Source: Neptuniibacter sp. (lineage in GTDB: Bacteria > Pseudomonadota > Gammaproteobacteria > Pseudomonadales > Balneatricaceae). From it: a stretch of 64,000 bases of DNA. The stretch spans positions 1 to 64,000 of the forward strand of contig NZ_JAAEQH010000279.1 of NCBI RefSeq assembly GCF_024231755.1, read 5' to 3'. The notes beneath the pieces were generated by a model. That model ran no database searches. It was not told the DNA's origin and was given only the letters and a program-made list of their open reading frames with translations. The position numbers and the translations under genes were made by a program. This document shows, one piece after another, positions 14,671 to 37,234 of this stretch. Within the stretch, counting starts at the first letter, position 1. Each line of letters opens with the position of its first letter.

Positions 14671-17106
<2,436 letters not shown>

Positions 17107-17115
17107 TAGGTTTGT

Positions 17116-17120
17116 AAGTA
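17116..17120. repeat. Target-site duplication AAGTA, left copy
   Basis: AAGTA directly precedes the TGTC left end. The same 5 bp follow the GACA right end at 37230-37234. Five-base duplications are the hallmark of Tn7-family insertion. Only this exact pair of boundaries gives both inverted ends and matching flanks. Confidence 0.93.
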
Positions 17121-17188
17121 TGTCAAATCTCATATTGGGTGAGATACCGTCTCAGAAGTTTGCTACGGTGTCTCATTTGAAATGATAC
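17121..17188 (+). repeat. Tn7-like left end with two TnsB-type sites
   Basis: Site L1 (17121-17147) reads TGTCAAATCTCAT then GAGATAC. Site L2 (17169-17188) reads TGTCTCATTTGAAATGATAC. Both share TCTCAT followed by GATAC about 8-9 bp later. Fewer and more widely spaced sites than at the other end resembles the left end of Tn7. Confidence 0.8.
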
Positions 17189-17194
17189 AGGAAC

Positions 17195-17222
17195 AAAAAA
17201 GCAGCCATTTGGCTGCTTTTTT
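17195..17222. terminator. Terminator inside the transposon left end
   Basis: AAAAAGCAGCC-ATTT-GGCTGCTTTTT is a perfect hairpin with A and T runs, so it works in both directions. It ends the minus-strand cargo cluster and also stands in for the gyrB terminator that the insertion displaced to 37245. Confidence 0.85.
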
Positions 17223-17267
17223 ATTTGGATCATGTCTGATGTAAAGGTTACGAATACTGACCTTTCA

Positions 17268-19700
17268 TTAATCAGCAAGAGCTTCTATGAGAGTATTCAT
17301 TTCAAAGTTGAGTAAGAATTCCGAATAATAGCTGTCGAAAATATCTTTCAAGTATTCAGATAGATCAATTTCAGCATAAGAGTCCGTATTTTCAAGCATT
17401 GGCTTGGTTATCTGATACTTCCTATTTTTGCTGATCATATATAGAAATAATGTATGGAAGTACACCGCTGATACATAGCGCTTATCGGCAACAAGTAGTT
17501 GTTCTTCCGAGCGTAATTTAGACTTGTATGTTTTTAATACTGAACTATCCATATTGATAAAAATCGTATCAAGTTTGTCACCCTCTACAAAAGGATGCAT
17601 GACAGTCGAGTAGTCCATTTCAACAAAGTCTAAGTCCCCCCAGCCCTTGAAACCCTCTTTTGGAGACTCGAAGACTTCTTGTAGCCTTGGGAGACCAATA
17701 TTTTCATTATCCTTATGTTGGTCTGGTATTTTTTTAGGTTTTTGATCTTTATCGGTGATTTTTACAATAAAGAGCTGATTTAAATCTTCACCTGGAGAGG
17801 TTAAAGATGCGTTGATCGTTATTGAGTCTCCGACTTTTACTTCATTTTTAGGATTGATATTGACTCGTATCTTACCTTTACTAGGGCTCGAGATGGCCAC
17901 ATCAATTATTGCTCCTGGGTCCTTTGGCTCTCCAGGTTCAGTACCACCTTCTATTTCATTAGAAGAATGAGACAGAACAGATATCTTTAGCTCGCCAGGT
18001 TCATCAATTCTATCGAAGTACAGATCTTCTACATCAGTGGAGAAGGATAGAGTTTTGTCTCCACCGAGAGGAATTTTAGTAAGTGGAACTTGGTCTTTAT
18101 CTTTCGATTTAAGATCAATATCAAATACTGATGGAAATCTCTTAGGATTGAATGGGATTTCCTGTCTAGGAGTGCTCTTTGGTTTTTGTCGCTCCCTTTT
18201 TTTATCCTTTTTATCGTCCTTGGCATCAAGGGCGAATGTATTACCAAGTAGCTTCATTAGATCCTTATTCATAGGAAGATGCTTACTGAAATCCTTTAAC
18301 AGGTCTTCAGCACTATCAGACTGCGTAGTGATAGAGTCCTTCCATTCCTTATAAATCTCTTTTAATCTTCCCTTAGTTAGTATATCTGCAATTAGTTTCC
18401 TGAGTTGCGAACACTCTTCACCTTGTTTCAATCGATCTCTCGAGCCCATGAAAAGTTCAGTTCGAAAGGAGTTTTTAAGGTTTGTACAATCTACATGAAT
18501 TAATAAGTAATCTTTTAATAAGTTGTACTTAAGAGATCGAGTAATAAATTCTGATGTAAAGCTCCCGTGGACTTGTCCGTTTAATGCAAACATTACGGAC
18601 ATGTTGTTTTTGAAGAATTCTCTTTTAATAGCTTCCTTCGTCTCTTTAGCAGACTTTCCATCAATACGTGGATTAAAGACATAGACCGTTATTTTCAATG
18701 ACCCTATTTCACTGTCATTGTAAGACTCAGAGAAAAATGAACGAATATATTTACTACCATCTTCTTCCAATCTTCTCTTCAGGCCATATAAATGACGTTC
18801 AAGAGCCCTATCTTTGGGGTACCTTTCCTTGATATCAATCGTATATATAGGCAAAGCTGGCTCAAATAAAAACTCGTTTATGCTTTGATTAAGGTCTCGA
18901 GATATAACAGATCTAGAACCTGCTGGTAGGTTGTATGAATAGAGTTTTATGATAGTCCCAGTGGTAAATTCTCGATTATGAAGACCAAGATCTAAACTAT
19001 CGATTTCGAAGGATGGAACTTGCCCATCAACAAGTAAATACTCATACCAAGTATTTTTCCTAGTTGCTTCTTCCTCTGCACTTAGAGGGTGTTTGCGCAT
19101 TATGGTAAAGCCAAACTTTCCTGTTTGATCAAACCTCTTGGATGCAACTAGCTGGTATCTCTTTTTCCCACAAAAAACAACGGCCCCAGCTCCTCCCATA
19201 TTGTATTTACCTTGAACAAAGGGAATCTCATTTTTGTTACCACGTAACAAAGACAAAAATGTATCCCCGAAGTCCTGTGGATGTTGACCTTCACCATCAT
19301 CGTAAATGATGAGCGAAGTGTCATTCCTGGGGCCTCTGGCTAAAATTTGTATCGACTCAGCCTGAAAAGATCTTTTTCCTGGTAGATCCCAACTTTGAGA
19401 AGAAGAGAAAAAGGTTTCTATTCCTTCATTGACAGACTTTGGGGCTTTAGAGCCTTTTGGATCAATACCCGCTTCAAGACAACGGCGCATCAGAATCGCA
19501 TCAATGGAATTTGTTACTTTCTCTACTAAAGCAGGTACTGGGGAGGCCTGTTGATTTTCTATCACCCCGAAGAAGCTCTCGTTATCTCCATAGGGTGTCC
19601 ATGACACATGAGTGTTGCCAGAAATAGACTCAATTACATGGTCTAAATCATTTTCTGTATCGGCGCTATAAAGCTGCACAAAAAGCTGTTCTAAATCCAT
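17268..19700 (-). CDS. Large GHKL-ATPase protein, last gene of the cargo cluster
   Basis: The 810-aa protein carries a GHKL (Hsp90/gyrase/MutL-type) ATPase fold at its N-terminus: an N-box EKVTNSIDAI (Asn64, Asp67), DDGEG at 134-138 and the glycine lid GKYNMGGAG at 164-172. A middle region may be the transducer. Residues about 485-515 are a Lys/Glu/Asp-rich linker (KDDKKDKKRERQKPK). The C-terminal 250 residues include a beta-rich segment (VKVGDSITINASL) of unknown function. No nuclease motif is evident. It starts 100 bp after the receiver-like gene, so it may have its own promoter. Conformational ATPases of this class are frequent in anti-phage loci; the specific function is unknown. Confidence 0.8.
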   Translation of the reverse strand: MDLEQLFVQLYSADTENDLDHVIESISGNTHVSWTPYGDNESFFGVIENQQASPVPALVEKVTNSIDAILMRRCLEAGIDPKGSKAPKSVNEGIETFFSSSQSWDLPGKRSFQAESIQILARGPRNDTSLIIYDDGEGQHPQDFGDTFLSLLRGNKNEIPFVQGKYNMGGAGAVVFCGKKRYQLVASKRFDQTGKFGFTIMRKHPLSAEEEATRKNTWYEYLLVDGQVPSFEIDSLDLGLHNREFTTGTIIKLYSYNLPAGSRSVISRDLNQSINEFLFEPALPIYTIDIKERYPKDRALERHLYGLKRRLEEDGSKYIRSFFSESYNDSEIGSLKITVYVFNPRIDGKSAKETKEAIKREFFKNNMSVMFALNGQVHGSFTSEFITRSLKYNLLKDYLLIHVDCTNLKNSFRTELFMGSRDRLKQGEECSQLRKLIADILTKGRLKEIYKEWKDSITTQSDSAEDLLKDFSKHLPMNKDLMKLLGNTFALDAKDDKKDKKRERQKPKSTPRQEIPFNPKRFPSVFDIDLKSKDKDQVPLTKIPLGGDKTLSFSTDVEDLYFDRIDEPGELKISVLSHSSNEIEGGTEPGEPKDPGAIIDVAISSPSKGKIRVNINPKNEVKVGDSITINASLTSPGEDLNQLFIVKITDKDQKPKKIPDQHKDNENIGLPRLQEVFESPKEGFKGWGDLDFVEMDYSTVMHPFVEGDKLDTIFINMDSSVLKTYKSKLRSEEQLLVADKRYVSAVYFHTLFLYMISKNRKYQITKPMLENTDSYAEIDLSEYLKDIFDSYYSEFLLNFEMNTLIEALAD

Positions 19701-19800
19701 TTAATGATCTCATTAAAAGTTGGTAAAAGATCAATATTTAACTTATAAATATTTACCACGAAGTGATTGCGAGATTAACTGTACCTACTACTGGAAAGAG

Positions 19801-21720
19801 TCATTGATTATCAATTATCTCTATAACTACACCACAATTTAAGGCTTCTCGCCTCCCTACAGTATTATTAGTTACTCCTTTAGTAATGTAACCAAGAATT
19901 AGAGGCTGATTCCCATTCAGCTGTCTTAAAGACTTTATCTGCGTTAGTCCAGTTCCGCTTGGTATATCAATTCCTGCCTCTAAGAGAACTAACAATTCAT
20001 CACTATTTACAACTAAATCTAGCCTTTCTTTGGAGTGTTCACTTACACTATCTATGTCTACTTCGGCTAGCTTAGAGCAAATTTCTTCGCAAATTTCTTC
20101 AGGTAGAACTAGCTTTTTCACTCGATCTTTATTTACGAAACACGTTCCTTCAAGTCCTTCTGCTATTGAGAAAAACTTCTGATCCTCAGAGCCTACAAGA
20201 TAAATATTAACACCAACATTAAATGTTCCAGGCATGGTTGCTATTTGCCCTACCCTACCAATATCAGAGAGTAATAGTTGTTGAAGCTCTAATGCATACG
20301 ATTCACGCATTCGCCCTATGTTATTTACAGTTTTCTCTTGCAGTAGGCTTTTGAGCTCTGAGTGTGAAATGGTTTCTATATGCTTTAAGTCCCACTTAAC
20401 CCAGTATTTCTTATCGTCGTCTTTTTTATAGAAAATAGGAGTCCTTTCCTTTGTACTTTTTTTGTCCCAGTTATCAGAAGTGAGTTCTATTGGGGATCCT
20501 ACTAGTAATAATATGTTCTTCGATCCAGCTCTTTGAAGATCACACGCTGGAGTAACAACTAATAGAATATTAGATGGCTCAACTCTTTGAGAAAAAAGAA
20601 CAAAAGTATCACTAATCTGCTCGCCAGCTTCTTCAAGATTGGAAAGAGATAGAAGATCACCGAAATGAACAACAGGCCCTTCTTCTTGCTTAAGCTCTAA
20701 TCGCTCTGGGCCAATGTATAGAAGCTTATGGACTAGCTCTTGTAGATCAGATGAACCAGTGACATTGGGTGGAGGATAGTTTTCTAAATCAAGCTCATTG
20801 AGATTTATTGCAGCATCAATAATAGATCGTTCTCTCTCGACTTCATGCTTGAGTACATTATCGAAAGTATCTACCAAATAATTGCCAATTGCCTCTCCTT
20901 CCTCTTTTAAAAGTAGCTGATTAATTTGGGAAAAATCAGAAATATTGAGCCTGCGTAAAAGTGAAGTTGTTCTTTGGCTTGCGGAAATCAGGCCTTTTTC
21001 CCAAGCATAGACAAAGTTAGAAAGTTTAAGAGTGTCAGTGTAATGCCTAGCAAGCCTTGATAGTATTCTTGTGAATTTTGGTTTTGAAAGTTCATTTTTA
21101 GGAATAAACCTAAATCCTGATTCGAATAGGCCTGCATTGTCTCGAAAGTAAGAACTCTCAGTTTCCAATCTATTATTTCTAGACGTCAATATTATTAAAG
21201 GAGGATTCTTAGATCTTGCATCTATAATACGTTTAAGGATAGAAATAGATAAATCCATATCGGTATCTGTTTGAGCAGAACTAAGGAATAGGTCAATGAT
21301 GATTAATTCAGCACTTATTGTCTCTGTATCTACGGATCTGCCAGAAGTGCTGCATTCCAGGCCTAACTCTTTAAGCTGATCAATAACTGGTGAGAGGAAT
21401 TCAATATCTTGATTTGTATCGAATTCGTATCTTTCAAATAAAGGTGAAACTAACTCGGTCCTGATGTCAGATCTATGCATCCATAGCTGTTCTACAAATT
21501 CTGCTTCATTGATCAGGTCATCCCCATCTACTTCATCATAGTTAGGATAAAAGCTCTTTATTGTTGCTATATCTTCACTTGTTATATCATCAAAAAAAGC
21601 TGTCCACTCATCATCATCAATAGCAAGGTCACCAGGTGTTGGTGCTGAATCGTAAGCATCATCTATAAGCAATACTGATTTTATTTTTGCTTCATGCAAA
21701 GTGGTACTTAGGTCCGTCAT
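19801..21720 (-). CDS. Receiver-like regulatory protein with a large insertion, partner of the adjacent kinase-like protein
   Basis: The 639-aa protein starts like a response-regulator receiver (VLLIDDAYD, acidic pair Asp20-Asp21). The rest of the fold appears only after about 110 inserted acidic residues: ELIIIDLFLSS (candidate phospho-acceptor Asp143), PLIILTSR (Thr179/Ser180) and FRFIPKNEL (Lys208). These are the five classical receiver positions. Residues about 215-639 show no domain I can name; LLVVTPACDLQ near residue 385 could be a metal or thiol site. Its ATG overlaps the kinase stop by 4 bp (ATGA), so the two are co-translated. I infer phosphotransfer or docking between them; no DNA-binding output domain is visible. 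Confidence 0.75.
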   Translation of the reverse strand: MTDLSTTLHEAKIKSVLLIDDAYDSAPTPGDLAIDDDEWTAFFDDITSEDIATIKSFYPNYDEVDGDDLINEAEFVEQLWMHRSDIRTELVSPLFERYEFDTNQDIEFLSPVIDQLKELGLECSTSGRSVDTETISAELIIIDLFLSSAQTDTDMDLSISILKRIIDARSKNPPLIILTSRNNRLETESSYFRDNAGLFESGFRFIPKNELSKPKFTRILSRLARHYTDTLKLSNFVYAWEKGLISASQRTTSLLRRLNISDFSQINQLLLKEEGEAIGNYLVDTFDNVLKHEVERERSIIDAAINLNELDLENYPPPNVTGSSDLQELVHKLLYIGPERLELKQEEGPVVHFGDLLSLSNLEEAGEQISDTFVLFSQRVEPSNILLVVTPACDLQRAGSKNILLLVGSPIELTSDNWDKKSTKERTPIFYKKDDDKKYWVKWDLKHIETISHSELKSLLQEKTVNNIGRMRESYALELQQLLLSDIGRVGQIATMPGTFNVGVNIYLVGSEDQKFFSIAEGLEGTCFVNKDRVKKLVLPEEICEEICSKLAEVDIDSVSEHSKERLDLVVNSDELLVLLEAGIDIPSGTGLTQIKSLRQLNGNQPLILGYITKGVTNNTVGRREALNCGVVIEIIDNQ

Positions 21721-24074
21721 TTTGTTATCTTCTTTTCAGGTAGCTCTAAAATAAATCGGTGAAGCCGCTTGGTCTTCAGGCTAGGGGTCTCGTCGAGTGT
21801 AAGAATGCCATCGTTGTATTGAGCACACTCTTTAGCAATGAATAGCCCAAGCCCTCTCCTTTTAGTTTTTTCTTTCAAAGAAAAGAATACTTGGAATACC
21901 TTTTCTCTATTTTCTGGCGCAATACCTCTACCATTATCTTCAAATATGATAGTTGGAGGAGAATCGTGTGATGAGATAGATATAGTAGGTATAAACCTAT
22001 CATTACGTTGAGCTTTCATTTCCATCCAGTATTTGGAATTAGAAATCAGGTTTTCTAAGATCTGGACGATCATGCCTTTAACTGCGTTAACTCTGATTGG
22101 TGAATCTGCTAAATCAAGGTTAACTTGGATATGATGACGGTCAAACTGAGCAGAATGTGCTTCAAGTGTATCCTGAATAAGTTCATTTAGTGAGAAACTT
22201 TCTTTACGCTGTCTTCCAGAGACGCTTAGAGGGTCTAGCACTTTAATCCTTTTGCTTAAGCTCTTCATTTGCGACCGGAGAGATTCAAGCTTTTTCTGCA
22301 CAGAATCAGGTACAGTGCTGCCTTTCAGGTCATTAAGATTCGATATGGCATTTTCAGAAGCCCTGGCTAGCTCATGAGCTACCACTTCAACCATAAGACC
22401 AACACCTGCCATCTCTATCATTTGCCGACTTTCTTGCTCAACTTCTTCAATTCTTATTTTTGCTTTTTTAGCAAAGTCAGAGAACTCGAATAGCGTTTGC
22501 TGTAAGTCTTCGATAGCTTCTTTGCCTTCCTTTGGAACCTTTTTCCTTAGAGTACCTAGTGAGCCCTTAGCACGTTGCTCCAAAGTTGCGATTTGAGCTT
22601 TAGAGGTTGATAGGTCAATTTTTTGATTTTTATACTGTTTCTCAATTCTCTTCATAAAGCTGAGTAATTCATCCTGTATGACAAGACTCATTACTTCTAA
22701 AAAAGCTTTTTGTTCTTGGGTTTCTCTTAGCCCTTCGCGGTTGGTTTGGTCAACTAGCATTGGGTTTGTCGTTCTAGAAATGCAAACTTTGCCAATAAAT
22801 TGGGTTTTGTTTAAGGCGTAACCAGATCTTGCAAGGGCTTTTCTATCTAGAGCTAACCAATCATCGTCGTCATCGCCATATGGAAATACACGGAAATCAT
22901 CCCGAAATAGCATGATTCCTGACCACTGACGCTGTAAGGCTCTTACATCTTTTAAGCTGCCAATGCTTTCTATCTTTTTTAATCTTTGTCTATTGAACCA
23001 GTGGGCTTCAAATGAAAAGTCACCGAGATTAAGTAATGCATCATCATGAATTTCTGAATCGGTTCCAATTAAAGATCCCTCTAGATCTACTAAGGTTCTT
23101 ACTGTTTCTTCCTCTTCCTTCGGGTGATCGAAACCAAGATTGTTTGCAGTCATTTTACAGCGTAGAACAGGCTCTCCATTCTCAATTGAGTACGAGCCTT
23201 TAACTGTTGCCTGAGCATGTTCAAGAAGAGTTTTATTCATCCATGGAATTTTTATTCTTTCTTCATTCCAGGATAAAGCTACTCTTGGCCTTTTCTTTGC
23301 GTCCTTGAATGGGTCTGTAAGTCGTGAAAAGTCATGCTTGGCCATTTCTTCTAATCGAGTTTTTGTCCAATCTTCAGAAAGTTTCCCGATAATTATTTTT
23401 GTTCCACTCCAATCGGAGGAGTTCTTATTTTGGCCTTGTGATGGTGTAACGCTTATGTCACTTAACATTGCGTCAGTTTGAGAAAACTCATTCCAATCAA
23501 TATCGAGTATATTTAGTCTTGAGTCATCTTCTGTAGCTGTTTCAACTCTTAAGTGGTCACCTAGTCTCATTGCGGATAGACGACCAATTCCTTTTTCTCC
23601 AAGGTATGGGCTTCTTGAAGCCTTACTTTTAATAGCTTCATCTACAGCTTTTTTCCTTGAGGATGTACCGATAACGAGAAAGTTATTTTCCAAGTCACTA
23701 GAAGACATACCTGATCCAGTATCTGATATGGTTATAGTGCTTGAGTTATATATTTCTTGTAGGGTTTCTAAGAGCTTTTCGGGTGTATGAGATAACTTTA
23801 TCGATTCTTGAGCGTTATCAGAGTTGTTAGCATCAAGGTTAATGGCCTTTAATGCATATAGTTTATGTTTTTCAAAGTTATCGGGATCGACCTCTATACG
23901 ATTCGATAGAGTTAGAAAAGCATTTCTACGTAATAACACATTAAATTCAATAGAGACTCCGCTTTTCGTACGGGCATCAAAACCATTCTTTATTAGTTCA
24001 TAGAAAGCAATAATATCTGAGCTAATTAGTTCTGATCCTAGCTCTAAAACTGCTCTTGCAGAAATTTTGAACAC
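21717..24074 (-). CDS. Double GHKL protein: Hsp90/MutL-like ATPase fused to a histidine-kinase-like module
   Basis: The 785-aa protein has two separate GHKL ATPase cassettes. The first has an N-box YELIKNGFDA (Asn30), DTGSGM at 118-123 and GEKGIGR at 159-165, as in Hsp90/MutL/MORC-type ATPases. A coiled-coil region (about 480-560) leads to a DHp-like helix with AHELARASENAI (His567). A C-terminal histidine-kinase ATPase follows: LENLISN near 675, FEDNGRGIAP near 711-720 and RRGLGLFIAK near 739-748. No transmembrane helix or signal peptide is seen, so it is cytosolic. Start is GTG with a strong AGGAGG site. It likely senses a signal through the first ATPase and passes it to the receiver-like neighbour (inference). 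Confidence 0.82.
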   Translation of the reverse strand: MFKISARAVLELGSELISSDIIAFYELIKNGFDARTKSGVSIEFNVLLRRNAFLTLSNRIEVDPDNFEKHKLYALKAINLDANNSDNAQESIKLSHTPEKLLETLQEIYNSSTITISDTGSGMSSSDLENNFLVIGTSSRKKAVDEAIKSKASRSPYLGEKGIGRLSAMRLGDHLRVETATEDDSRLNILDIDWNEFSQTDAMLSDISVTPSQGQNKNSSDWSGTKIIIGKLSEDWTKTRLEEMAKHDFSRLTDPFKDAKKRPRVALSWNEERIKIPWMNKTLLEHAQATVKGSYSIENGEPVLRCKMTANNLGFDHPKEEEETVRTLVDLEGSLIGTDSEIHDDALLNLGDFSFEAHWFNRQRLKKIESIGSLKDVRALQRQWSGIMLFRDDFRVFPYGDDDDDWLALDRKALARSGYALNKTQFIGKVCISRTTNPMLVDQTNREGLRETQEQKAFLEVMSLVIQDELLSFMKRIEKQYKNQKIDLSTSKAQIATLEQRAKGSLGTLRKKVPKEGKEAIEDLQQTLFEFSDFAKKAKIRIEEVEQESRQMIEMAGVGLMVEVVAHELARASENAISNLNDLKGSTVPDSVQKKLESLRSQMKSLSKRIKVLDPLSVSGRQRKESFSLNELIQDTLEAHSAQFDRHHIQVNLDLADSPIRVNAVKGMIVQILENLISNSKYWMEMKAQRNDRFIPTISISSHDSPPTIIFEDNGRGIAPENREKVFQVFFSLKEKTKRRGLGLFIAKECAQYNDGILTLDETPSLKTKRLHRFILELPEKKITK

Positions 24075-24114
24075 TGAAGATCTCCTCCTTGAATTAAGTT
24101 TAGGAACAACAGCA

Positions 24115-24945
24115 CTACAACGAACAGATCAAGCATGCTTGATCTTCAGGATCATCATCGTCTTGTTGGTATCTAAGAACTTCTTGCCACTTTTGCTCGT
24201 TTATAGAAGACGATTTGCTGATGACACCCTCTTCTTTTTCTCTCTCTTCGGCTCGAGCCACGACTTCATCAAGTGTCTTACCTTGTACCCAGGTATATCC
24301 ATTACCAGATGTCTTTTCAATTTCTTTAGCTTTTTCAAACAGCTCTGGATGGTATCTCTTCAAACCTAGCCATTCATCTTGCCGCTGAAAGAAGCAGAAG
24401 TAACAACCGGATCTAGATCTCCATTGATAGTATTCGGGAATTCCTACGCTATCTTCAAGAATCTGGAAAATATCATCTCTAACTAAGCCATCTTCGATAA
24501 ATGGAAATATAGCGGTAATGTTTTCCTTCGAGCTTACATACCCTTCTCGAAATTCATCAGCTCTTATTCCTACATAGCTTATAACTGGATCTTCACCTAC
24601 AAAGTCTTCAAATGGCTTTATTTTCATTGTACGAGTACACCACCTCTGTCTAGCTGATGGTAAGTAATCATTATGAAGCTTCAACCAATGCGAGAAATCC
24701 CGGCCACTTGAAAGGCGAATGATCTCCTTACCTAGATAGGCCTCCATTTTATCTAAGAATTCATACACTTCTTCAAGTTCAGCACCAGTATCTGTAAAGA
24801 AGTACTCAACACGAGAATGTATCTCTGGATATCGATCCTTCAGGTATATCGCTAATGCTGCACTATCTTTACCACCTGAAATGCCCAGTACATGCCTTCT
24901 ATCATCGGCGACCATTGCGTCCTTCATGTTGCTTTTATTTGCCAC
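24115..24945 (-). CDS. PAPS-reductase/DndC-like PP-loop enzyme with extra cysteine pairs
   Basis: The 276-aa protein has the adenylating PP-loop SGGKDS at residues 23-28, then TDTGAE at 51-56 and RWCTR (Cys103). SGCYFC (Cys181, Cys184) is the pattern of the DndC/CysH-related sulfur-transfer family. It ends ACLICSL (Cys271, Cys274), an extra CxxC. The cysteines could hold an iron-sulfur cluster, as in DndC and TtcA. Relatives activate a substrate by adenylation and transfer sulfur, for example in DNA phosphorothioation. No dndA/iscS, dndD or dndE gene is nearby, so standard Dnd is excluded. Its start overlaps the end of the ATPase gene by 11 bp. Confidence 0.85.
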   Translation of the reverse strand: MANKSNMKDAMVADDRRHVLGISGGKDSAALAIYLKDRYPEIHSRVEYFFTDTGAELEEVYEFLDKMEAYLGKEIIRLSSGRDFSHWLKLHNDYLPSARQRWCTRTMKIKPFEDFVGEDPVISYVGIRADEFREGYVSSKENITAIFPFIEDGLVRDDIFQILEDSVGIPEYYQWRSRSGCYFCFFQRQDEWLGLKRYHPELFEKAKEIEKTSGNGYTWVQGKTLDEVVARAEEREKEEGVISKSSSINEQKWQEVLRYQQDDDDPEDQACLICSL

Positions 24946-27900
24946 TAGAGACCTCTTTTAGTGGGGCTGATGCTTCTTTCGAACCATTATCCTTTGATGG
25001 GCTTAGGAACTCATCTACAAGTTCAGCAAGTACGGCCAGTTGTATTTCTTGATTTGTATCTCCATCTTTCAGAAGACTGAGAACTTCTTGTTTAATATCC
25101 TGAATAGCTGAGTGCTGCTGCTTATCGATTGTAATAACCCGGTCTAAGGGTTCTGCGCCTTTTTTAACAGACTTTAGTAAGAAAACGTCAAAGTCACCTG
25201 AACACTTTTGTTGATATCTATCGCTGTGAACACGGAGGGTCTCAAGGTCTAGTAGCCTTTTTGAGAAATCACTTAGCCTGACCTCTGCTTCAGCACGATT
25301 TCCGTCAGTCCACTTCTTAGCAGGCTTATAACCAAGGAACATCAAAATGTTCTGCAGCCAGCTATCATCGTCTATGCTTGTTTTAGTGAGACGCATAAGA
25401 AATGCTTTTAATCCGTCTATATCAACAGTGTAAAGTTCTAGACCTGAATAACGTCCTACGATGATTCTTCTTAGCTCTTCGAGGCTAGAGTATTCGATAT
25501 TGAAAGCTTGCCCTAAGAGAGTTTTTTGGTGCTCGATTAGCTGTGGGAAAGCGTGTTTTAATTCTCTAAGAGCATTCCTTAACTTATCAGCGAAACCTTC
25601 TAACTCGCCAGGCTCAGAAGATTCCAGGAGTTTGTATCCTAAAGCTTTAGGCAATTCAGAAAATAATAAAGCTTCTGGCGACTTTGCTAATTGATAGGCA
25701 TCTCTAACAGCCTTTGCTTCCTTCGATAAAACTGATGACTTTGTCTTCAGCGTATATTCGGGTAGCTCAGACATAAACTTAGCCAGAGGAGATACCAGTT
25801 GTATGACAGTTCTTTGGTTCTTATTACTAAACAAAGCCTTAGAGTATTCTTCATAAATAGAAGCTTTCAGACCTTCGATTCTAAAACGTTGAACAGTGAA
25901 GGATTCTGGCTTTCTTGAAAAACGCTCTAGATGATCAGGTTGGATAGCAGGTATATATTTCCTATCTTCGTACAAGGCAAGCTCATGACGATCAACTAGA
26001 TATGCTGCGAAGTATACGATGGGTAGTAAACCAAGCTTAATTCCGTAAGGTGGAGCTGATAATATCTTTGTTAACTCTGCAAATGAACGAGGGCTATCTT
26101 CTGTTGTAGCGAAGAAGTCTCTTACGGCATTCCAAGTATCATCAAATTCAGACCCTGTTTCTGGCTCGATGAATCTGTATTCACCCTCTACTTCCTTGTG
26201 AAGCCCTGTAGCCTTCAATACAGCTCTATATATAGCTTTTTCAGGTGGAAATTTATCTATGCCCAGATCAACATTAGATTCGCTTTCCAACATTGCAGTG
26301 AGAAGTTTGTTTCTCCCTGCTACAGCCTGGCTTGAAGGCTTGTCCCTGTTAATAAGCTCGTTATGTATAGATGGGGCTTTGGAATAAACCTCTTCAAAAA
26401 TATTTGAGAGAAGCTCTTGAAATCTACGCTTACTCTCAATGGATACAGGCTCGCCCTTCCAAAACCACAAGTTATTCTCAGGATGCTGCAATAGCTGTTC
26501 TAGCATATTTTGCTGGGTAACTAATATTGCATTCTTACGCTCAACAAATTCTTTCTTTGCTATTGGATCAGAGTTTAGTTCTTGGTACTGATTTTCAATC
26601 TGGCTGAGAGCTTGTTCTTCAACTAACAGTTGCTTCAGTCTGGGTGTATTTGAACACAGAGCTATAACTACAAACTCAGAGTGAGATGCTAAATTGTTGG
26701 TAATTTCTACCTCGTTCTGGGAGGTATCTGATAACACATAGGCAAGGGTTGGCTCATCAAATGTAGCTTGAGTAAGCTCTTCTACCGAGTCGAAGAACCT
26801 CGGTAAAAAATAGCGTAGAGCTCCATTTTGTATTGTGTAGCGCCGAGCAACTATGGGATCAATATATGATCCGTTGTTAAGAGCTTGAGCTACGGAATAA
26901 GCTTTGATTTTGGATACTTCGTCATGGATGCAAGACTCAAGATCAAAGTCACTGCCTTGCCAAACTCTATATTCAGAATTGAACTTGCGGTAAGTAATTA
27001 ACGAGGATGTCTCTAAGACTTGGATTCCTTCTTTAAATTCCTCATAGGATTTACAGCAAGTTTCTAGTATTGGTTCAGAGGCTTTGATACCCCTATTCGA
27101 ACCAATAACATTTAGTAAACCAATAGTTTTAAGAAGTTCTAGTTCAATTTCAGATTGATGATCGAGCCTATCAATAGCAGTAGAGACTTCCACCCATCTC
27201 CTGTTGGTAATATGGTCACCCAGAATCCCAGACCGGCTTCTCATGAAGTAATCAAAGACATCACTTGGCATGATGAATTCTCCAATTCCCTTGAGCTGCT
27301 TTAAAATATGCTGAAAGGCGCTGTCTTCATGACTGGATAGATAACTAAATAGGGTTCTTTCATTCTGAGCCACTTTCTGACACAGCGTTGGTAAAATCAG
27401 AGCTGTTAGAGGGTGAAGTGGATAGCACGAAGAAAATAATTGATTTGCTTCATCAACGTTAAGGCCGTGTGGTAAGGCATGCTCTTCGTGCAGAGTTTTA
27501 ATAATCGGATTAGTTATCGTGTGAACTCGATGGCTATCTTCTTCACTAAAGTCGGTTTGTATCGCGTTGCTGACTACTCGTAGTGTTTGTTCAGAAGATT
27601 CAAGGAATGGTATTTCTTCAAAGCGCCCCTGAACTTTTGACCATTCATGTTTGAGTGTATCCCCTAACCCTTTTGCGTAATGTTCGAGGGAATGGTGCAA
27701 TGAAACGAATAAGCTAAGATTTACATCATGAGCGGCATAAGCATGTTCAGCTAGCTCTTGAAGTAGGTAGATATCATTCGCTTCTGACTGCAGCGCTTCA
27801 AATTCTAGGAACTTTCCAAGCTCGTCAACACATAGCAAAATCCCAGGGCATCTAATTGTCTTTGAAGACTTAAATGCATTCTGTGTTGCCTTGAAAGCGT

Positions 27901-28405
27901 CAATCACATCAGAAGTGGAAATTTTATTCTGTTCAATAATCGTACTTAATTGACTAGTCAGGCTTTTAGATGATGTGTGGTTTTCAATTAAATAGCTTGT
28001 TAATGACTTTAATAGCGAGCTTAAGATGCTACGAGCTAGACCTTGATGTGAGCCAGTTACGAGTACACTAAGATAGCCAGTCGAGGACGATAATTTAGTA
28101 CATAGCTTTTTATTTATGTCTGGACTGTATGCTTCAAGCAGATTCAGACATTCATTTGTTTCTGTTGCTAGTGCGTTAGATAAATATAAAAGAAATGATG
28201 ATTTACCAGACCCATAAGGGCCAACTAGCGACCAGGCTCGAGGTGTTTGTTCTGCATTTAGTGTATCTGCAAAGCGGCTAATTGTACTGATTGCTCTGGT
28301 TGTTGGTATGTAACCTTTAGCAAGTTCTATAGAGCTAGCATCGCGCTCAATATTTATTGATCTTGTATACCGAGAGTTAACTGAAACTTTATTTACTAAG
28401 CTCAT
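24935..28405 (-). CDS. Large P-loop ATPase of the cargo cluster
   Basis: The 1156-aa protein has Walker A GPYGSGKSS at residues 62-70 and Walker B ILLCVDELGKFLE with Asp194-Glu195. TGSHQGLARS lies between and FVSLHHSLEHYA follows as a possible sensor. The rest (about 250-1150) is helix-rich with coiled-coil stretches (for example LEQLLQHPENN) and no nuclease or methylase motif. Overall size and layout recall BrxC/PglY-type ATPases of phage-defence loci, but I cannot show homology. Such proteins often form large assemblies on DNA. Its start overlaps the DUF4007 gene by 4 bp, and its end overlaps the PP-loop gene. Confidence 0.8.
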   Translation of the reverse strand: MSLVNKVSVNSRYTRSINIERDASSIELAKGYIPTTRAISTISRFADTLNAEQTPRAWSLVGPYGSGKSSFLLYLSNALATETNECLNLLEAYSPDINKKLCTKLSSSTGYLSVLVTGSHQGLARSILSSLLKSLTSYLIENHTSSKSLTSQLSTIIEQNKISTSDVIDAFKATQNAFKSSKTIRCPGILLCVDELGKFLEFEALQSEANDIYLLQELAEHAYAAHDVNLSLFVSLHHSLEHYAKGLGDTLKHEWSKVQGRFEEIPFLESSEQTLRVVSNAIQTDFSEEDSHRVHTITNPIIKTLHEEHALPHGLNVDEANQLFSSCYPLHPLTALILPTLCQKVAQNERTLFSYLSSHEDSAFQHILKQLKGIGEFIMPSDVFDYFMRSRSGILGDHITNRRWVEVSTAIDRLDHQSEIELELLKTIGLLNVIGSNRGIKASEPILETCCKSYEEFKEGIQVLETSSLITYRKFNSEYRVWQGSDFDLESCIHDEVSKIKAYSVAQALNNGSYIDPIVARRYTIQNGALRYFLPRFFDSVEELTQATFDEPTLAYVLSDTSQNEVEITNNLASHSEFVVIALCSNTPRLKQLLVEEQALSQIENQYQELNSDPIAKKEFVERKNAILVTQQNMLEQLLQHPENNLWFWKGEPVSIESKRRFQELLSNIFEEVYSKAPSIHNELINRDKPSSQAVAGRNKLLTAMLESESNVDLGIDKFPPEKAIYRAVLKATGLHKEVEGEYRFIEPETGSEFDDTWNAVRDFFATTEDSPRSFAELTKILSAPPYGIKLGLLPIVYFAAYLVDRHELALYEDRKYIPAIQPDHLERFSRKPESFTVQRFRIEGLKASIYEEYSKALFSNKNQRTVIQLVSPLAKFMSELPEYTLKTKSSVLSKEAKAVRDAYQLAKSPEALLFSELPKALGYKLLESSEPGELEGFADKLRNALRELKHAFPQLIEHQKTLLGQAFNIEYSSLEELRRIIVGRYSGLELYTVDIDGLKAFLMRLTKTSIDDDSWLQNILMFLGYKPAKKWTDGNRAEAEVRLSDFSKRLLDLETLRVHSDRYQQKCSGDFDVFLLKSVKKGAEPLDRVITIDKQQHSAIQDIKQEVLSLLKDGDTNQEIQLAVLAELVDEFLSPSKDNGSKEASAPLKEVSSGK

Positions 28406-29313
28406 GATGCAACTTCCTGAGTGCTACTCGTATAGTAGAGAGACAAATAATCAGTTGCTCTTTCTTCCCCTATTTTGAAAATTTGCAGTTGCCCTGCCAC
28501 ATCGCGCAGTTCATATGCATTTGGAATAAGAGAAATCATATCTTCCAGCTTGTTAACGACATCGCTCTCTATGAGGCGGAATACAGCACCGGGGGTTACT
28601 TGATTTGCCCTAGAGTACATAACTTGCTCCAAAGGCACTGAGTTCGTGGTAAGGTTTTCAAAGAACTGAGTAACAGCAAAGGCGAAGATTGCTGTCGGTA
28701 ATTGACTACGATACTTAGGACTTGATTCGAATCCACTGTGGGTATTTGTAATTAAGCCTAAAACGGAAAAAGGAGAATCAAGCGATTCTTCAGCAGGTAG
28801 CTTTCCGTTAGTTTTACTTTTAGTGTACATCCTAGTTATTGCAGAGATGTCATTTTTCAATGTACTTGGCGACACCTTGGTTTTTACATTTTCAGAAACG
28901 TATTCCTTAAGGGTGTCTACTAGCTCAACGGTTTCAAAATTGGTCTTATGAAATTTATTAAAAAACCAAAACCATGTTGTTGCTTGTTTTGGGTTGGATG
29001 CAAGAAGCCAGTGTAACAACCATATAGTTGCTTCATCTTCCAAGTAAGGATCGAGACCTGAATCTGGGTCAAACAGTAGATTCCCCAAATCAGTTGGTTC
29101 TGTTGAGTTTGTTTCAAGCAGCTGGCAAGCCCGTAGCCAGTAACGAATTGATGTGACCATGTTCTTACCGACTCCCAGCTGAACAGTCGCATCATCAGAT
29201 TCGAATATTTTTCTGTCACTCTTTAAAGCGAGAAACCCTTTAGTAAGCCAGCCGTAACGCAGTGCAAACGTTTCGTGTCTCCCAAAGGCTGTAGTTTCCG
29301 GAACTAGCTGCAT
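28402..29313 (-). CDS. DUF4007 family protein, first gene of the cargo cluster
   Basis: The 303-aa protein opens with FGRHETFALRYGWLTKGF and continues VQLGVGKNMVTSIRYWL, which I recognise as the start of the DUF4007 family. To my knowledge, members are found next to PAPS-reductase-like and large ATPase genes in DNA-modification or defence clusters; no biochemical role is established. The aromatic and basic pattern with TSIRYWL suggests a helical DNA- or protein-binding module (inference). It has a weak ribosome site. It heads the operon, with the divergent XRE gene 420 bp away. Confidence 0.8.
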   Translation of the reverse strand: MQLVPETTAFGRHETFALRYGWLTKGFLALKSDRKIFESDDATVQLGVGKNMVTSIRYWLRACQLLETNSTEPTDLGNLLFDPDSGLDPYLEDEATIWLLHWLLASNPKQATTWFWFFNKFHKTNFETVELVDTLKEYVSENVKTKVSPSTLKNDISAITRMYTKSKTNGKLPAEESLDSPFSVLGLITNTHSGFESSPKYRSQLPTAIFAFAVTQFFENLTTNSVPLEQVMYSRANQVTPGAVFRLIESDVVNKLEDMISLIPNAYELRDVAGQLQIFKIGEERATDYLSLYYTSSTQEVAS

Positions 29314-29733
29314 TGATCTTGTCTACCTGTAGAAAAAGACGTCCATTTAGCCTATTTAGTTAGAGCTGAAATTGGCTTCGTCCATGAAAAATAAAACAAC
29401 AGATGAGTATATCAGTTCCTGATAGAAATGATTGCGATTGCAGACTGCTTTACCAATCAATTTTTTTAGTTCGGTTATATCGGAACAGCTTACTTTTGGC
29501 GTATTGGTAATCTGAAAGAGTCGTATGGACAGTATGTTGCTCGTGAAAGCCCCTCTACCACAGGGCTATAGCGTTATTGGTGATTTTCCTAGTTGAGAGA
29601 TTAGCTGATAAGTTACCTATTAAAAGATTAAGATATATCGGTAACTTTATGATTTTTATAGATATGTAGGTGTTTGCGTTGTCTTAAAAATAGCCATATC
29701 CTGACTATATCTAGTCAATTTCAGGTAGTCGAT
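29314..29733. promoter_or_regulatory. Divergent control region between the cargo operon and its XRE regulator
   Basis: This 420-bp AT-rich spacer must carry the promoters of the minus-strand operon and of the plus-strand XRE gene. It holds the imperfect palindrome TTCGGTTATATCGGAA (29470-29485, 12 of 16 symmetric), a second TATATCGG copy at 29634-29641, and a perfect inverted repeat GACTA-TATC-TAGTC at 29703-29716, 17 bp before the XRE start. These are candidate repressor operators. No coding frame of note is seen. Confidence 0.5.
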
Positions 29734-30120
29734 ATGACCCCATTTGGCCGTTACCTGGCAACACTGCGATTGAACCGCCAAGTTAAGCAGAAGGAGCTAG
29801 CTGAAGCTTTGGGGGTTGATCCAAGCTATATCAGCGCTATTGAAAGCGGTAAAAAGCCTCCTCCTTCTAATAGAGTGATTCGTGAAATCGTTGGTGAGCT
29901 AGCTTTGCCTAAAGATGAAGAGGCATTGCTATGGAATTACGCGGATCAGTCAATTCGAGTAATGCACATTCCGGACGACCTACCGTTAGAAACGTATGCG
30001 CTGATCCAGGAATTTCGAAAATCTCTGAAGAGCCTCTCTGCAGGTCAGGTAAATGTTATTCGCTCGGTCATATCAATGGAACGGAATGACTGTAATGAAC
30101 GGCTGAATACGAATATTTAG
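29734..30120 (+). CDS. XRE/Cro-type transcriptional regulator
   Basis: From ATG 29734 the product is 128 aa. I prefer this start because it places an AGG site 8 bp upstream and fits the family start MTPFGRYLATLRLNRQ; an in-frame ATG at 29674 would add 20 unlikely residues. The HTH_3 domain spans about residues 6-60 (KQKELAEALGVDPSYISAIESGKKPP). It is divergent from the six-gene cluster and upstream of tnsA. I infer it represses the cargo operon, itself, or both, keeping a potentially harmful system off. It may also act on the tns genes downstream, 165 bp away. Confidence 0.85.
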   Translation: MTPFGRYLATLRLNRQVKQKELAEALGVDPSYISAIESGKKPPPSNRVIREIVGELALPKDEEALLWNYADQSIRVMHIPDDLPLETYALIQEFRKSLKSLSAGQVNVIRSVISMERNDCNERLNTNI

Positions 30121-30284: not shown

Positions 30285-31046
30285 ATGTCAAAAATTAGGA
30301 ATGTTGTACCTCTTGGTACGGGGCATGGGTCTACTATGGCTTTGAAAATGACCTCGGATTCAGATTACAAGCCATCCAGGGATCCCGTTACAAGATCTAG
30401 GATGACAGTTCGCGGGCGCTTTCGGTCATCAAAAAGAAGGCCTTCAATCGCTTGGGAGTCTCTCCTTGAGAGGAGTGCTTGCTATAGATTTGAGTTTTCT
30501 CCTGCTGTTATTGCTTTTTATGAGCAACCTGACCCCATTAAGTTTTACTTTCAAGGAAAGCTTTCTAGGTATACGCCAGATTTCAGGCTTCATCTAAATA
30601 ACGGCGAAACCTGGTTTGTGGAAGTTAAACCTCTTAAGCATCTTCAGCGTCCAGATTTGTTTCAGAAATTTCTCACTATTTCGGATGAGTACAGAAATCA
30701 GGGGTACGGTTTTATTGTTATCACTGACGAAGAGCTTAACCACTTTGACTTGGAGTCGAACCTGACTCATATCCATTATTACCGACTTCGTGAGCTGTCT
30801 GATTTGACGATCAGGCAGGCTAGAAACTGGGTGCTACAAACCGATAGCCCAACTTTAGGGAAAATGCATGAATATTTTGGTGATATGACAACAGCGTTTG
30901 TCCTTATTTCCCAGCAATACATTTGTCTGGATCTAACTTCCCCTTTCAGTTCGGGATCTAACTTGTACCTACCAGAGGAGGACCATCATGCAACGCTTTT
31001 GTTTTCGTATCGGACAGCGCCTGCTTTTGAACTCTGTAACCTATAA
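30285..31046 (+). CDS. tnsA: Tn7-like transposition endonuclease TnsA
   Basis: The 253-aa protein has the restriction-enzyme-like catalytic set: Glu58 (WESLLE), Asp99 (RYTPDF) and Glu113-x-Lys115 (FVEVKP). This matches the E/D/E-x-K pattern of Tn7 TnsA, which cuts the 5' ends of the element so that it leaves the donor site by cut-and-paste. A C-terminal winged-helix-type region follows, the part that contacts TnsC in Tn7. ATG 30285 is preceded by AAGGATTTC. Its end overlaps tnsB by 59 bp, so the two are translationally coupled. Confidence 0.92.
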   Translation: MSKIRNVVPLGTGHGSTMALKMTSDSDYKPSRDPVTRSRMTVRGRFRSSKRRPSIAWESLLERSACYRFEFSPAVIAFYEQPDPIKFYFQGKLSRYTPDFRLHLNNGETWFVEVKPLKHLQRPDLFQKFLTISDEYRNQGYGFIVITDEELNHFDLESNLTHIHYYRLRELSDLTIRQARNWVLQTDSPTLGKMHEYFGDMTTAFVLISQQYICLDLTSPFSSGSNLYLPEEDHHATLLFSYRTAPAFELCNL

Positions 31047-32910
31047 GGTCTGGAGGATTCTTGAGAATGGTGACTGTGTACTAGAAAGGGAATCTGATTT
31101 AGCGCATGTAATGCGCTCAAAAACTGAACTACTGAATGCACTTTCTAGTAATTGTTTAAGCTTTGTTTTGGATGGGGCCCAATTACATCGTTCTGAAGTG
31201 CCCTCGATTAAGGGGCCTTTAGACTCTTGTGTTGAAGAAGATCAAGAAACAGCTTTGTACCGAATGTCATATATTAAATTGGCTATCCGAGAGTTTGGAG
31301 AACAACCCTCATGTTCTAAGTTAAAGCCCTATCTACAGCTATTCGCTCAGCATTTAGGTGATAGCAAGCCTCCCGGAGCATATACCGTTTATACATGGTG
31401 GCGAACGTGGAAAGATTCAGGCGAAGATATTACGGCTTTAGTACCTAAGCAAAACAGAGGGCGTGTATCTTCTCATTTACGAGAGCATCATGGGCTTTTG
31501 CTTGAGGTCATCAATGAGCTTCTTTATCAGCGAGTACCGGGTACTAAGCAGGATGCGTATGAGGCATTCCTGATAAAAGCTGAGCAAGCAAACTCGTTGA
31601 AACCCATTCCAGTTCCAATTCCCTCCAGGGCTACTGTATACCGTTTAATCGATAAAATTACCGATCCATATGATCTTGTATTACATCAACAAGGTCGAAG
31701 GGCTGCAGAGCAAGCTTTCCGAGCTACTGGCGAGGGCGTCAGAACTACTCGTATTCTTGAGCGAGTTGAGATAGATCACACACCTATGAATATCATGGTT
31801 GTTGATGAAGTTACCGGTGAAGTAAATGGACGCCCTTCTTTAACCGCTGTGATAGATCACTATTCAAAGATGCCGCTAGGTATCTATATAGGGTTTGAGC
31901 CCCCCTCATTTGTCTCTGTTATTAGGGCTATACGCAACGCAATTCTCCCCAAAAACGATATTGAAAAGCAGTTGCCTGATCCTTCGTTTACTTGGCCTGC
32001 ATATGGAATCATGGCTCTCCTTGCTTGTGATAATGGAGCAGAGTTTCACGACAAGCAGCTTGAGCGGATTTGTGGGGAGTTAAATATTGAGCTTCTTTAC
32101 TGCCCAAAACAGCACCCCTGGTTTAAGGGATCTGTTGAAAGATATGTAGGCCATTTAAACCAATCTCTTGGCAACAAGATGGAAGGAACCACGTTCTCTA
32201 ACATAGGTGAGCGTGGTGACTATGAGTCGGTAAAAGAAGCAAAGTGTACCCTGCAGGAGCTGCAGTGCCTGATACTCAAGTGGATTATTACTATTTATAA
32301 CCACCGTTTTCATGAAGGTATCGGTGAGACTCCATTCAATCTATGGACAGAGGGCTTAAAAAAATTTGAGCCGAGTTTGCCAGTGAGTAAGGAAAGTTTA
32401 GATCTCATTTTTACCAGGGAATTCACACGCAAGATTAATCATGAAGGGGTGAGTTTTAAAAGGCTTAAATATAACTCAGAAGCGTTAGGGATTTTGCGTA
32501 GGCAGTTACCGTCCTCAAAACCTGTCAGAGTTCGCGTTGATCCGGAAAACTTAGGCTCTGTGTGGGTGTTTGATGAATTTAGAGGTGAATTCATTTCAGT
32601 GCCTTGCCGCTCGAAGGTTGTTGCTGAAGGGTTGTCTCTGCGCCAACTAGAGTATCTTTTGGAGAAACGGACAAACCGAAGGAAAGCTGCGGACACCAAG
32701 GAGCTTCTGCAGCGAAAAGTTGATTTTGTTAAGGAAGTTCGTGCAGCAGGTACCGATAAAAGCCTACGACAAAGAACTAAAGCTGCCAGGAATTCCCAGA
32801 ATCCTCTTGTTGAGCCAGCTATCGAACTTCATGAGGAGAAAGAAGTACGTGGCCAGGTTCCTCTTTCGCTACCTGATGATTTAGATGATTTTGATATTCA
32901 GTGGGGTTAG
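30988..32910 (+). CDS. tnsB: Tn7-like DDE transposase TnsB
   Basis: The 640-aa protein has an N-terminal DNA-binding part, then an RNase-H-fold integrase core with catalytic Asp263 (VEIDHTP), Asp348 (LACDNGAEF) and Glu384 (KGSVERY). A Mu-type beta-barrel (about 470-560) and a basic tail follow. TnsB binds the repeated end motifs, cuts the 3' ends and joins them to the target. The ATG has a strong AGAGGAGG site. The C-terminal end (about 610-640) is acidic (PDDLDDFDIQWG), where Tn7 TnsB contacts TnsC. Confidence 0.95.
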   Translation: MQRFCFRIGQRLLLNSVTYKVWRILENGDCVLERESDLAHVMRSKTELLNALSSNCLSFVLDGAQLHRSEVPSIKGPLDSCVEEDQETALYRMSYIKLAIREFGEQPSCSKLKPYLQLFAQHLGDSKPPGAYTVYTWWRTWKDSGEDITALVPKQNRGRVSSHLREHHGLLLEVINELLYQRVPGTKQDAYEAFLIKAEQANSLKPIPVPIPSRATVYRLIDKITDPYDLVLHQQGRRAAEQAFRATGEGVRTTRILERVEIDHTPMNIMVVDEVTGEVNGRPSLTAVIDHYSKMPLGIYIGFEPPSFVSVIRAIRNAILPKNDIEKQLPDPSFTWPAYGIMALLACDNGAEFHDKQLERICGELNIELLYCPKQHPWFKGSVERYVGHLNQSLGNKMEGTTFSNIGERGDYESVKEAKCTLQELQCLILKWIITIYNHRFHEGIGETPFNLWTEGLKKFEPSLPVSKESLDLIFTREFTRKINHEGVSFKRLKYNSEALGILRRQLPSSKPVRVRVDPENLGSVWVFDEFRGEFISVPCRSKVVAEGLSLRQLEYLLEKRTNRRKAADTKELLQRKVDFVKEVRAAGTDKSLRQRTKAARNSQNPLVEPAIELHEEKEVRGQVPLSLPDDLDDFDIQWG

Positions 32911-32914
32911 CAGG

Positions 32915-37099: not shown

Positions 37100-37229
37100 T
37101 ATTAGATATGAGATTTCGTTCGAATCATCGTATCCGATGTGAGATATTGGATACCTAGTGAAATCTCATTACGGTTGATATCCCCTGCTCTTTCGTAACT
37201 CTTCGTATCGCACGAAATGAGATTCGACA
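37099..37229 (-). repeat. Tn7-like right end with four TnsB-type sites
   Basis: Read from 37229 inwards, the end starts TGTCGAATCTCATTTCGTGC and GATAC. Sites: R1 37204-37229, R2 37161-37182 (opposite orientation, AAATCTCATTACGG), R3 37129-37146 and R4 37099-37116. All share ATCTCA followed by GATA/AATAC. Dense sites at this end resemble the right end of Tn7, although here tniQ, and not tnsA, is nearest. Confidence 0.8.
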
Positions 37230-37234
37230 AAGTA
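37230..37234. repeat. Target-site duplication AAGTA, right copy
   Basis: AAGTA follows the GACA end exactly and equals 17116-17120. See the element entry for the inference. Confidence 0.93.

Follow-up and report, generated by a model that had tools for sequence, protein, structure and literature searches.

A Tn7-like transposon in a 64,000-nucleotide stretch of Neptuniibacter sp. DNA (positions 1 to 64,000 of contig NZ_JAAEQH010000279.1, assembly GCF_024231755.1; hereafter the window) carries a six-gene cluster, in which the DNA-phosphorothioation module SspB-SspC-SspD is followed by a double-GHKL histidine kinase (HK), a receiver protein (REC) and a second GHKL ATPase (GHKL2). Our main finding is that the HK-REC pair goes with Ssp, yet most Ssp loci do without HK-REC. 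The reading that we favour, with a probability of about 0.58, is that HK-REC forms the response arm of an Ssp variant and acts by phosphorelay.

All six genes lie on the minus strand, running from 29313 down to 17268 and encoding proteins of 303, 1156, 276, 785, 639 and 810 amino acids (aa). Their intergenic spacings in transcription order are -4, -11, +40, -4 and +100 bp, giving one apparent operon. An earlier note on this DNA had described six genes on one strand, joined by overlaps or small gaps with the last one 100 bp further on, which agrees with these coordinates and spacings.

28402..29313, minus strand: sspB (DUF4007), 303 aa, first gene of the operon; PADLOC SspB 1.2e-91, Pfam DUF4007 2.8e-83
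24935..28405, minus strand: sspC, 1156-aa P-loop ATPase, 4-bp overlap with sspB; PADLOC SspC E=0, 1306.6 bits, residues 1-1058
24115..24945, minus strand: sspD, 276-aa PP-loop/PAPS-reductase-like sulfur transferase; PADLOC SspD 1.4e-106 over residues 17-275
21717..24074, minus strand: HK, soluble double-GHKL histidine kinase, 785 aa; paraMORC-like ATPase, DHp with His567, HATPase_c
19801..21720, minus strand: REC, receiver (response-regulator) protein, 639 aa; structure model with a predicted local distance difference test (pLDDT) score of 88.6, receiver fold Z 11.6
17268..19700, minus strand: GHKL2, second GHKL ATPase, 810 aa, optional; HATPase_c_3 0.0028 (below cut-off)

The DUF4007-ATPase-PP-loop trio at the head of the operon is, by its PADLOC matches, SspB-SspC-SspD, the Ssp DNA-phosphorothioation module, with the three core genes together in one operon. 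The earlier note had held that the cluster lacks the partners defining Ssp. This proved wrong, the trio being SspBCD itself and only SspE and SspFGH missing. Its further remark that it could name no described system with this set no longer holds for the trio, which PADLOC names, and stands for HK, REC and GHKL2, which were matched to no named system by the libraries used. Pfam confirmed the DUF4007 domain, the PP-loop and the two HATPase domains of the 785-aa protein. SspD matched the PAPS-reductase-like PP-loop family (6.5e-10), and its SGGKDS loop is readable in the translation. The description of the 1156-aa protein as a P-loop ATPase is backed by its PADLOC assignment to SspC, the Pfam P-loop matches themselves falling below the cut-off (KAP_NTPase 0.0025, AAA_22 0.0041); the P-loop residues G62, G65, G67, K68 and S69 are invariant in seven sequences.

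PADLOC models were run on seven window proteins, among which neither SspE nor SspFGH was matched. A Dnd system was rejected, with no DndB, DndD or DndE among these proteins and only weak DndC matches to SspD; PglZ and BrxL were likewise unmatched among the seven. The earlier note, too, had seen no partners that define Dnd or BREX. SspA is absent from the cluster, and an IscS-type cysteine desulfurase with an SSGSAC active site is encoded on another contig of the genome; in a Vibrio system, iscS is reported to be used with sspBCD (PMC8092258). In the genome assembly, which is 88.7% complete and comprises 384 contigs, we found no PF03235/GmrSD_N domain, and a search for SspH gave its sole matches in one 898-aa open reading frame (ORF), via its FtsK-like end. 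An unlinked Ssp effector could therefore lie in the part of the genome outside this incomplete and fragmented assembly.

Association of the kinase-receiver pair with SspBCD

A search with REC alone returned eight plasmid records, of which six were read, and each of these carried sspBCD genes (cut at the edge of the stretch in locus L004). The same kind of search in 369 genomes of the window's class gave no other good match and one marginal match (E 6.7e-4). Scanning genomes with HK residues 1-620 yielded 186 relatives; the counts given here rest on the best 80, with matches above 40 bits used at each locus. REC immediately follows HK in 75 of the 80 loci, with partial or broken frames included (L032, L040, L065 and L081), and in the other five the contig ends within 74 bp. 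A match to SspB, SspC or SspD is present in 70 loci (weak or broken in L040, L065 and L081), while 59 of the 80 contain all three genes. For six of the ten loci without local Ssp, SspC was found elsewhere in the genome, raising the number with Ssp to 76 of 80. No Ssp was found for L024, L046, L062 and L066, whose contigs end near HK; about 10 kb without Ssp could be read on one side of L024, L062 and L066.

On plasmids, HK residues 1-500 matched 62 records (the best 60 of the 62 were tabulated). All 15 plasmids with an HK coverage of at least 80%, plus the partial match CP035931, are among the 67 SspC records in a total of 72,556, and in these 16 records HK sits within ~13 kb of SspC. A hypergeometric estimate of this co-occurrence for 12 distinct hosts, in which kinship is ignored, is 1e-37. 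The combination of a sulfur-transfer enzyme, a large ATPase and a two-step sensor proposed in the earlier note is thus a recurrent one, seen in 76/80 genome loci and in 15/15 well-covered plasmids as well as the partial one. Furthermore, the pair can sit between ssp genes: the order sspB-sspC-HK-REC-sspD occurs in 10 of the 80 loci, not counting L010, L065 and L078, where it is an artefact of overlapping or broken stop-to-stop frames, and also in L152.

By their record titles, the HK relatives belong to Pseudomonadota, Acidobacteria, Planctomycetes, Verrucomicrobia, Bacteroidota, Chloroflexota, Gemmatimonadota and others, many of them being metagenome-assembled genomes (MAGs) whose labels may err. 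Locus L010, labelled as an Akkermansia muciniphila MAG, encodes an HK 62% identical to that of the window, together with ssp genes and sspFGH, which points to either mis-binning or transfer.

We compared evolutionary distances between the proteins of 61 loci. The correlation was r 0.971 for HK-REC, 0.974 for SspC-SspB and 0.887 for SspC-SspD, and 0.62 for HK-SspC. Where two HKs were 55-65% identical, the median SspC identity was 36% for 171 other pairs and 25% for the window's 13 pairs. The pair is therefore combined with diverged SspBCD proteins while remaining with Ssp, which suggests that HK-REC follows the phosphorothioate mark and depends on it more than on specific protein contacts.

Catalytic residues and family of HK and REC

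The N-terminal part of HK matched HATPase_c_3 (6.8e-18) and its C-terminal part HATPase_c (2.8e-15), while the DHp region scored just below the cut-off for HEF_HK (7.3e-05, 23.6 bits against 24.1). In an alignment of the 61 loci in which all five proteins were long enough, the N-terminal site residues E26, N30, D33, A34, D118, G120, G122, G159, K161, G162 and G164 are invariant (61/61), as are H567, E568, N675, N679, D713, G715, G717 and G743 of the C-terminal half, with G741 kept in 60 of 61. Therefore, both ATP sites and the phospho-histidine have been retained. Among solved structures, the best 60 of the 136 chains matched by HK residues 1-620 are all Hsp90-type.

REC comprises a receiver region (residues ~12-230), whose first strand is followed by a helical insertion, and a C-terminal β-rich output domain (~345-540). 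An AlphaFold2 model obtained from 48 sequences, selected from 77 listed receivers, aligned to receiver domains with Z scores of up to 11.6 (residues 13-229, 2.5 Å, 117 residues), the VIA-align fold comparison taking in the receiver part only. The earlier description of this protein as receiver-like is consequently upheld by the modelled fold, with no Pfam receiver family matched in any of the 48 members. The phosphorelay residues D20, D21, D143 and K208 are invariant in all 48, and position 180 is serine in 47 and threonine in one. In the C-terminal part, G354, C393, W443, R489 and G491 are invariant, D355 is kept in 45/48 and D394 in 47/48. Foldseek ranked MazF first in the PDB (E 0.010, prob 1.00, query range unspecified) and a PemK-like protein first in BFVD (E 0.011, prob 1.00), with an entry named "endoribonuclease" at rank 11 (E 0.21). 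Based on the model, a PemK/MazF-like barrel in the output domain is possible, and an RNase activity of this domain is a guess. Solved structures contained no sequence match to REC or GHKL2 at E 1.

A two-component-like pair, HEF_HK (PF19191) and Response_reg_2 (PF19192), was described in 2021 from 644 regions, where it neighbours restriction-modification genes and C5 methylases in particular (PMC8011034). Judged by profile alignment, HK-REC is a branch of this family: HK aligned to HEF_HK kinases with a probability of 100 (E 8e-49, 667 columns) and the C-terminal part of REC to methylase-linked receivers with a probability of 92 (E 5e-7). As in that family, a kinase of HATPase_c_3, DHp and HATPase_c composition adjoins a receiver protein; unlike there, the partner is SspBCD instead of a C5 methylase, and in the window PF19191 falls just below its cut-off and PF19192 is unmatched. 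The HEF_HK model matched five of seven HKs at E<=0.1, and Response_reg_2 none of the 48 receivers at E<=1.

In the window's class, HEF_HK-type loci occur in 3 of 274 genomes, each with a C5 methylase beside the kinase; the receivers of these three carry R-V-G in all cases and P-A-C-D-L in two. There are also 46 weaker plasmid relatives of HK, 41 of them from Campylobacter. Four were sampled, and in each a response-regulator or hypothetical gene directly follows the kinase and a DNA methyltransferase lies within ~4 kb. DNA-marking enzymes are thus the neighbours of this family, and for the branch in the window the neighbour is the phosphorothioation writer: none of the six cluster genes encodes a methylase, and SspBCD occupies that place. 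The terms phosphorothio-, Dnd and DUF4007 are absent from the main text of PMC8011034.

With the SspABCD-SspE and SspABCD-SspFGH systems, as described in PMC8092258, the cluster shares the sspB-sspC-sspD core; it differs in having HK, REC and a further GHKL ATPase, SspE and SspFGH not being found. It likewise recalls the MORC/paraMORC GHKL ATPases of restriction-modification systems, which are reported beside DNA modification genes (PMC2292703), except that HK contains a second, kinase-type GHKL domain, has a receiver partner and has no recognised fused nuclease.

In Acinetobacter baumannii CP040048 (L151, 10989-23377), HK, REC, sspD, sspC, sspB, a DNA-binding gene, an endonuclease and a transposase are arranged in the window's layout. 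The TnsB profile built from the window hits this transposase at 173 bits, and the endonuclease is TnsA by position only. This locus differs from the window in that its HK is 30% identical over residues 2-468, its receiver lacks the Cys-Asp motif and the 23 kb read contain no GHKL2 match. In the same 23 kb the SspF, SspG and SspH profiles were unmatched and no SspE is annotated. CP040048 stands here for the global clone 2 Ssp locus of PMC12421847, its clone membership being putative, and HK is present in 4/4 A. baumannii SspC plasmid records, one of them partial. According to that 2025 study, in 5,518 of 5,530 A. baumannii cases sspE was not found in the neighbourhood of the remaining ssp genes, and its authors regard the same region, two-component system included, as a possible new variant (PMC12421847). 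Among the papers listed by searches of the open-licence literature, which leaves subscription papers and preprints out of scope, we recognised none that describes HK-REC as a general Ssp partner. The published record thus hints at the idea in one lineage, and its generality is what is new here.

Proposed mechanism and rival explanations

In the proposed Ssp variant, SspB, SspC and SspD would mark host DNA with phosphorothioates, the sulfur probably being supplied by the cell's own IscS. The N-terminal paraMORC/MutL-like ATPase clamp of HK would engage DNA and read its modification state, either directly or via Ssp proteins. Upon meeting foreign or unmarked DNA, the presumed signal, the kinase half would autophosphorylate at His567 and transfer the phosphate to Asp143 of REC. 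Phosphorylation would then render the C-terminal β-rich output domain active, and the phage or the cell would be stopped. In the window's variant GHKL2 would assist, its simplest role being a second restriction component of the DNA-clamp kind. A broader version, which we put forward tentatively and consider rather doubtful as a whole, would be a phosphorelay restriction in which a clamp kinase reads phosphorothioate, or methylation in sister systems, and unmarked DNA triggers a receiver whose PemK/MazF-like barrel is the antiphage or growth-arrest effector; one interchangeable arm would then serve chemically unrelated marks.

A 2021 survey counted 2,211 of 2,678 sspBCD loci with neither SspE nor SspFGH, and proposed that these have undiscovered restriction partners or are true orphans (PMC8092258). 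HK-REC is a concrete candidate for the missing partner at some of these effector-less loci, because among the relatives examined it is nearly always found with SspBCD, has kept its phosphorelay residues and can lie inside the ssp operon. The finding also joins the literature on phosphorothioation defence to that on methylase-linked HEF_HK/Response_reg_2 pairs, around the idea that a signalling pair reads the marks on DNA.

Several observations weigh against a response arm. The 106 weaker HK relatives fall outside the sample, and its seed alignment was built from plasmids linked to Ssp. Conversely, SspC (E 1e-30) is present in 11 of 398 genomes of the window's phylum, the window's own included, and in none of the other ten does HK-REC lie beside it (~14-17 kb read on each side, with shorter flanks of 9 kb to the right in G397, 11 kb to the left in G448 and 3 kb to the left in G732); on plasmids, HK accompanies SspC in only 16 of 67 records. 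The co-occurrence that the earlier note had named as its test therefore holds in one direction: among the relatives examined the pair rarely occurs without the trio, and the trio mostly lacks the pair. In addition, 26 of the 80 loci contain SspF, SspG or SspH genes, eight contain an ORF with DGQQR, a motif that we take to mark SspE-like proteins, and restriction-endonuclease genes are also reported in the A. baumannii region (PMC12421847). The effector step of the pair is itself a prediction: HK, REC and GHKL2 contain no recognised nuclease, Foldseek returned nothing for REC at E 0.001 in PDB or BFVD, an hhalign comparison of the REC C-terminal domain with a profile of ten PemK sequences gave a probability of 0.07%, and the members from A. 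baumannii and Polaromonas lack the conserved Cys-Asp.

The rival that survives best, though we hold it unlikely, is that HK-REC regulates ssp expression or the phosphorothioate level, for instance to avoid self-damage, while SspFGH, SspE or other nucleases restrict. HK-REC is after all a two-component pair that can sit inside the ssp operon, and it could be regulatory in the 26 and eight loci just mentioned because SspFGH or the DGQQR ORF is also present there. Near HK-REC-ssp loci we further observed, as recurrent neighbours, a ResIII helicase with a PLD-like domain (12 cases, for example L028 4684-7068), a PLD-like protein (nine, L044 13927-14871) and a GHKL ATPase (eight, L052 16065-18104), a set that recalls MORC-type restriction-modification systems. 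As these genes recur, other effectors may exist at some of the loci, which would suit a regulator. Set against this, no DNA-binding Pfam domain was found in the 48 receivers, and in the window an XRE gene is already present, divergent from sspB. Moreover, flanks of 9 kb or more on each side are available at 57 loci; all three SspBCD genes are present in 47 of them, and 27 of these 47 show neither SspFGH nor a DGQQR ORF. A search of the window's own genome, at 88.7% completeness, likewise yielded no known Ssp effector.

Alternatively, GHKL2 could be the true restriction enzyme, an analogue of SspE, with HK-REC merely its control, a proposal that may overlap with the regulator and is less probable still. 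The 810-aa protein, called a GHKL ATPase in the earlier note, has a Pfam match below the cut-off, and the assignment leans on seven residues, E60, N64, D67, D134, G136, G138 and G164, invariant in nine aligned sequences. All six close GHKL2 relatives lie beside sspBCD, five being 49-55% identical and one a contig-end fragment. Three of them, on plasmids (L006 from Ensifer adhaerens NER9, L091 and L092, ~49-53% identity), were found independently of HK-REC, and one of these, L091 from Hymenobacter, has no HK-REC match in 28 kb. Among distant relatives, two are beside N6_N4_Mtase methylases (L149, 11187-12449; L150, 7453-8655) and one is near dcm (L094, 9462-11702), with no methylase in the gene tables of L093 and L095; these neighbours hint at GHKL2 being a partner in restriction as well. 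The other three of the six close relatives (L047, L076 and the fragment in L048) came from HK-selected ssp loci and are not independent, which lowers the standing of this rival. They are also the only GHKL2 genes among the 80 HK-REC loci (3/80), and within 398 genomes of the window's phylum a close copy occurs in the window only. No nuclease is recognised in GHKL2, its structure model, obtained from three sequences, failed (pLDDT 44.4), and in L091, which also has a SIR2 gene, a DUF262 gene could be the restriction part.

It is improbable that SspBCD is a solitary epigenetic phosphorothioate writer and HK-REC-GHKL2 a separate passenger defence system of the same island. HK-REC and SspBCD do behave as two blocks that are loosely coupled (r 0.62), and Tn7-like elements are reported to gather defence genes (PMC8649781). 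A passenger is nevertheless hard to reconcile with Ssp accompanying the pair in 76/80 genome loci and 16 plasmid records when SspC occurs on just 67 of 72,556 plasmid records, or with the 10 loci in which the pair separates sspC from sspD. Finally, a reduced type 4 (phosphorothioate) BREX, which shares these three homologues according to PMC12839542, is very improbable, since the SspC, SspB and SspD models score far higher than the BrxC match of SspC (7.6e-126) and the weak BrxP matches of SspD and SspB, and PglZ and BrxL are absent among the scanned proteins.

The transposon and its insertion site

The Tn7-like transposon that carries the cluster is complete and spans 20,109 bp, inserted after gyrB, the stop codon of which, at 17106, lies just ahead of it (the name gyrB comes from reading the translated protein). 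The features that delimit it, and its genes outside the six-gene operon, are as follows.

17116..17120, no strand: target-site duplication AAGTA, left, 5 bp
17121-37229: Tn7-like transposon, identified by its ends and Tns genes
17121..17133, plus strand: left end, TGTCAAATCTCAT; inverted match to the right end
29674..30120, plus strand: XRE/HTH_31 regulator, divergent from sspB with 360 bp between; Pfam HTH_31 1.6e-12
30285..31046, plus strand: TnsA; Tn7_TnsA-like_N 1.8e-08
30988..32910, plus strand: TnsB transposase; Mu-transpos_C 1.2e-11, rve 1.6e-05 (below its cut-off)
32885..33859, plus strand: TnsC/TniB ATPase; TniB 1.1e-27
33856..35736, plus strand: TnsD/TniQ target selector; TniQ 9e-12
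37217..37229, minus strand: right end, TGTCGAATCTCAT; from the inverted repeat comparison
37230..37234, no strand: target-site duplication AAGTA, right, 5 bp

The element is bounded by inverted copies of TGTC(A/G)AATCTCAT. With TnsA, TnsB, TnsC and TniQ, inverted ends beginning with TGT and a 5-bp target duplication, the element has the features of a Tn7-like transposon, and all six genes (17268-29313) are its cargo, facing the XRE gene, as the earlier note had it on both counts. The GC content is 0.39 for the cargo, 0.40 for the whole element and ~0.455 for the flanks. The final ORF of at least 100 aa before the right end (36599-37099) encodes a 166-aa protein with a weak HTH_23 match.

A phage origin of the cluster was rejected, REC and GHKL2 having no match in 50,697 phage records; two weak HK relatives are present in viral contigs. 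Tn7-like elements are described as accumulating defence genes (PMC8649781), and in the available text of that cargo survey phosphorothio- occurs once, in the reference list only.

The 3' end of gyrB is an apparent recurrent landing site. Besides the window (17106-17268), sspBCD-HK-REC clusters end ~0.2-0.3 kb from the gyrB stop in L013 (Chitiniphilus, 14406-14580) and L085 (Burkholderia latens, 14342-14620), whose gyrB genes are 60% and 58% identical to the window's, respectively. Neither a Tns match nor a repeat end was found at these two clusters, and a literature search returned nothing on gyrB as a Tn7-like or TnsD attachment site. Two more Tn7-like transposase sets adjoin ssp genes, in L059 (13564-18012) and L119 (4461-8819), and ssp genes may be recurrent cargo of Tn7-like elements.

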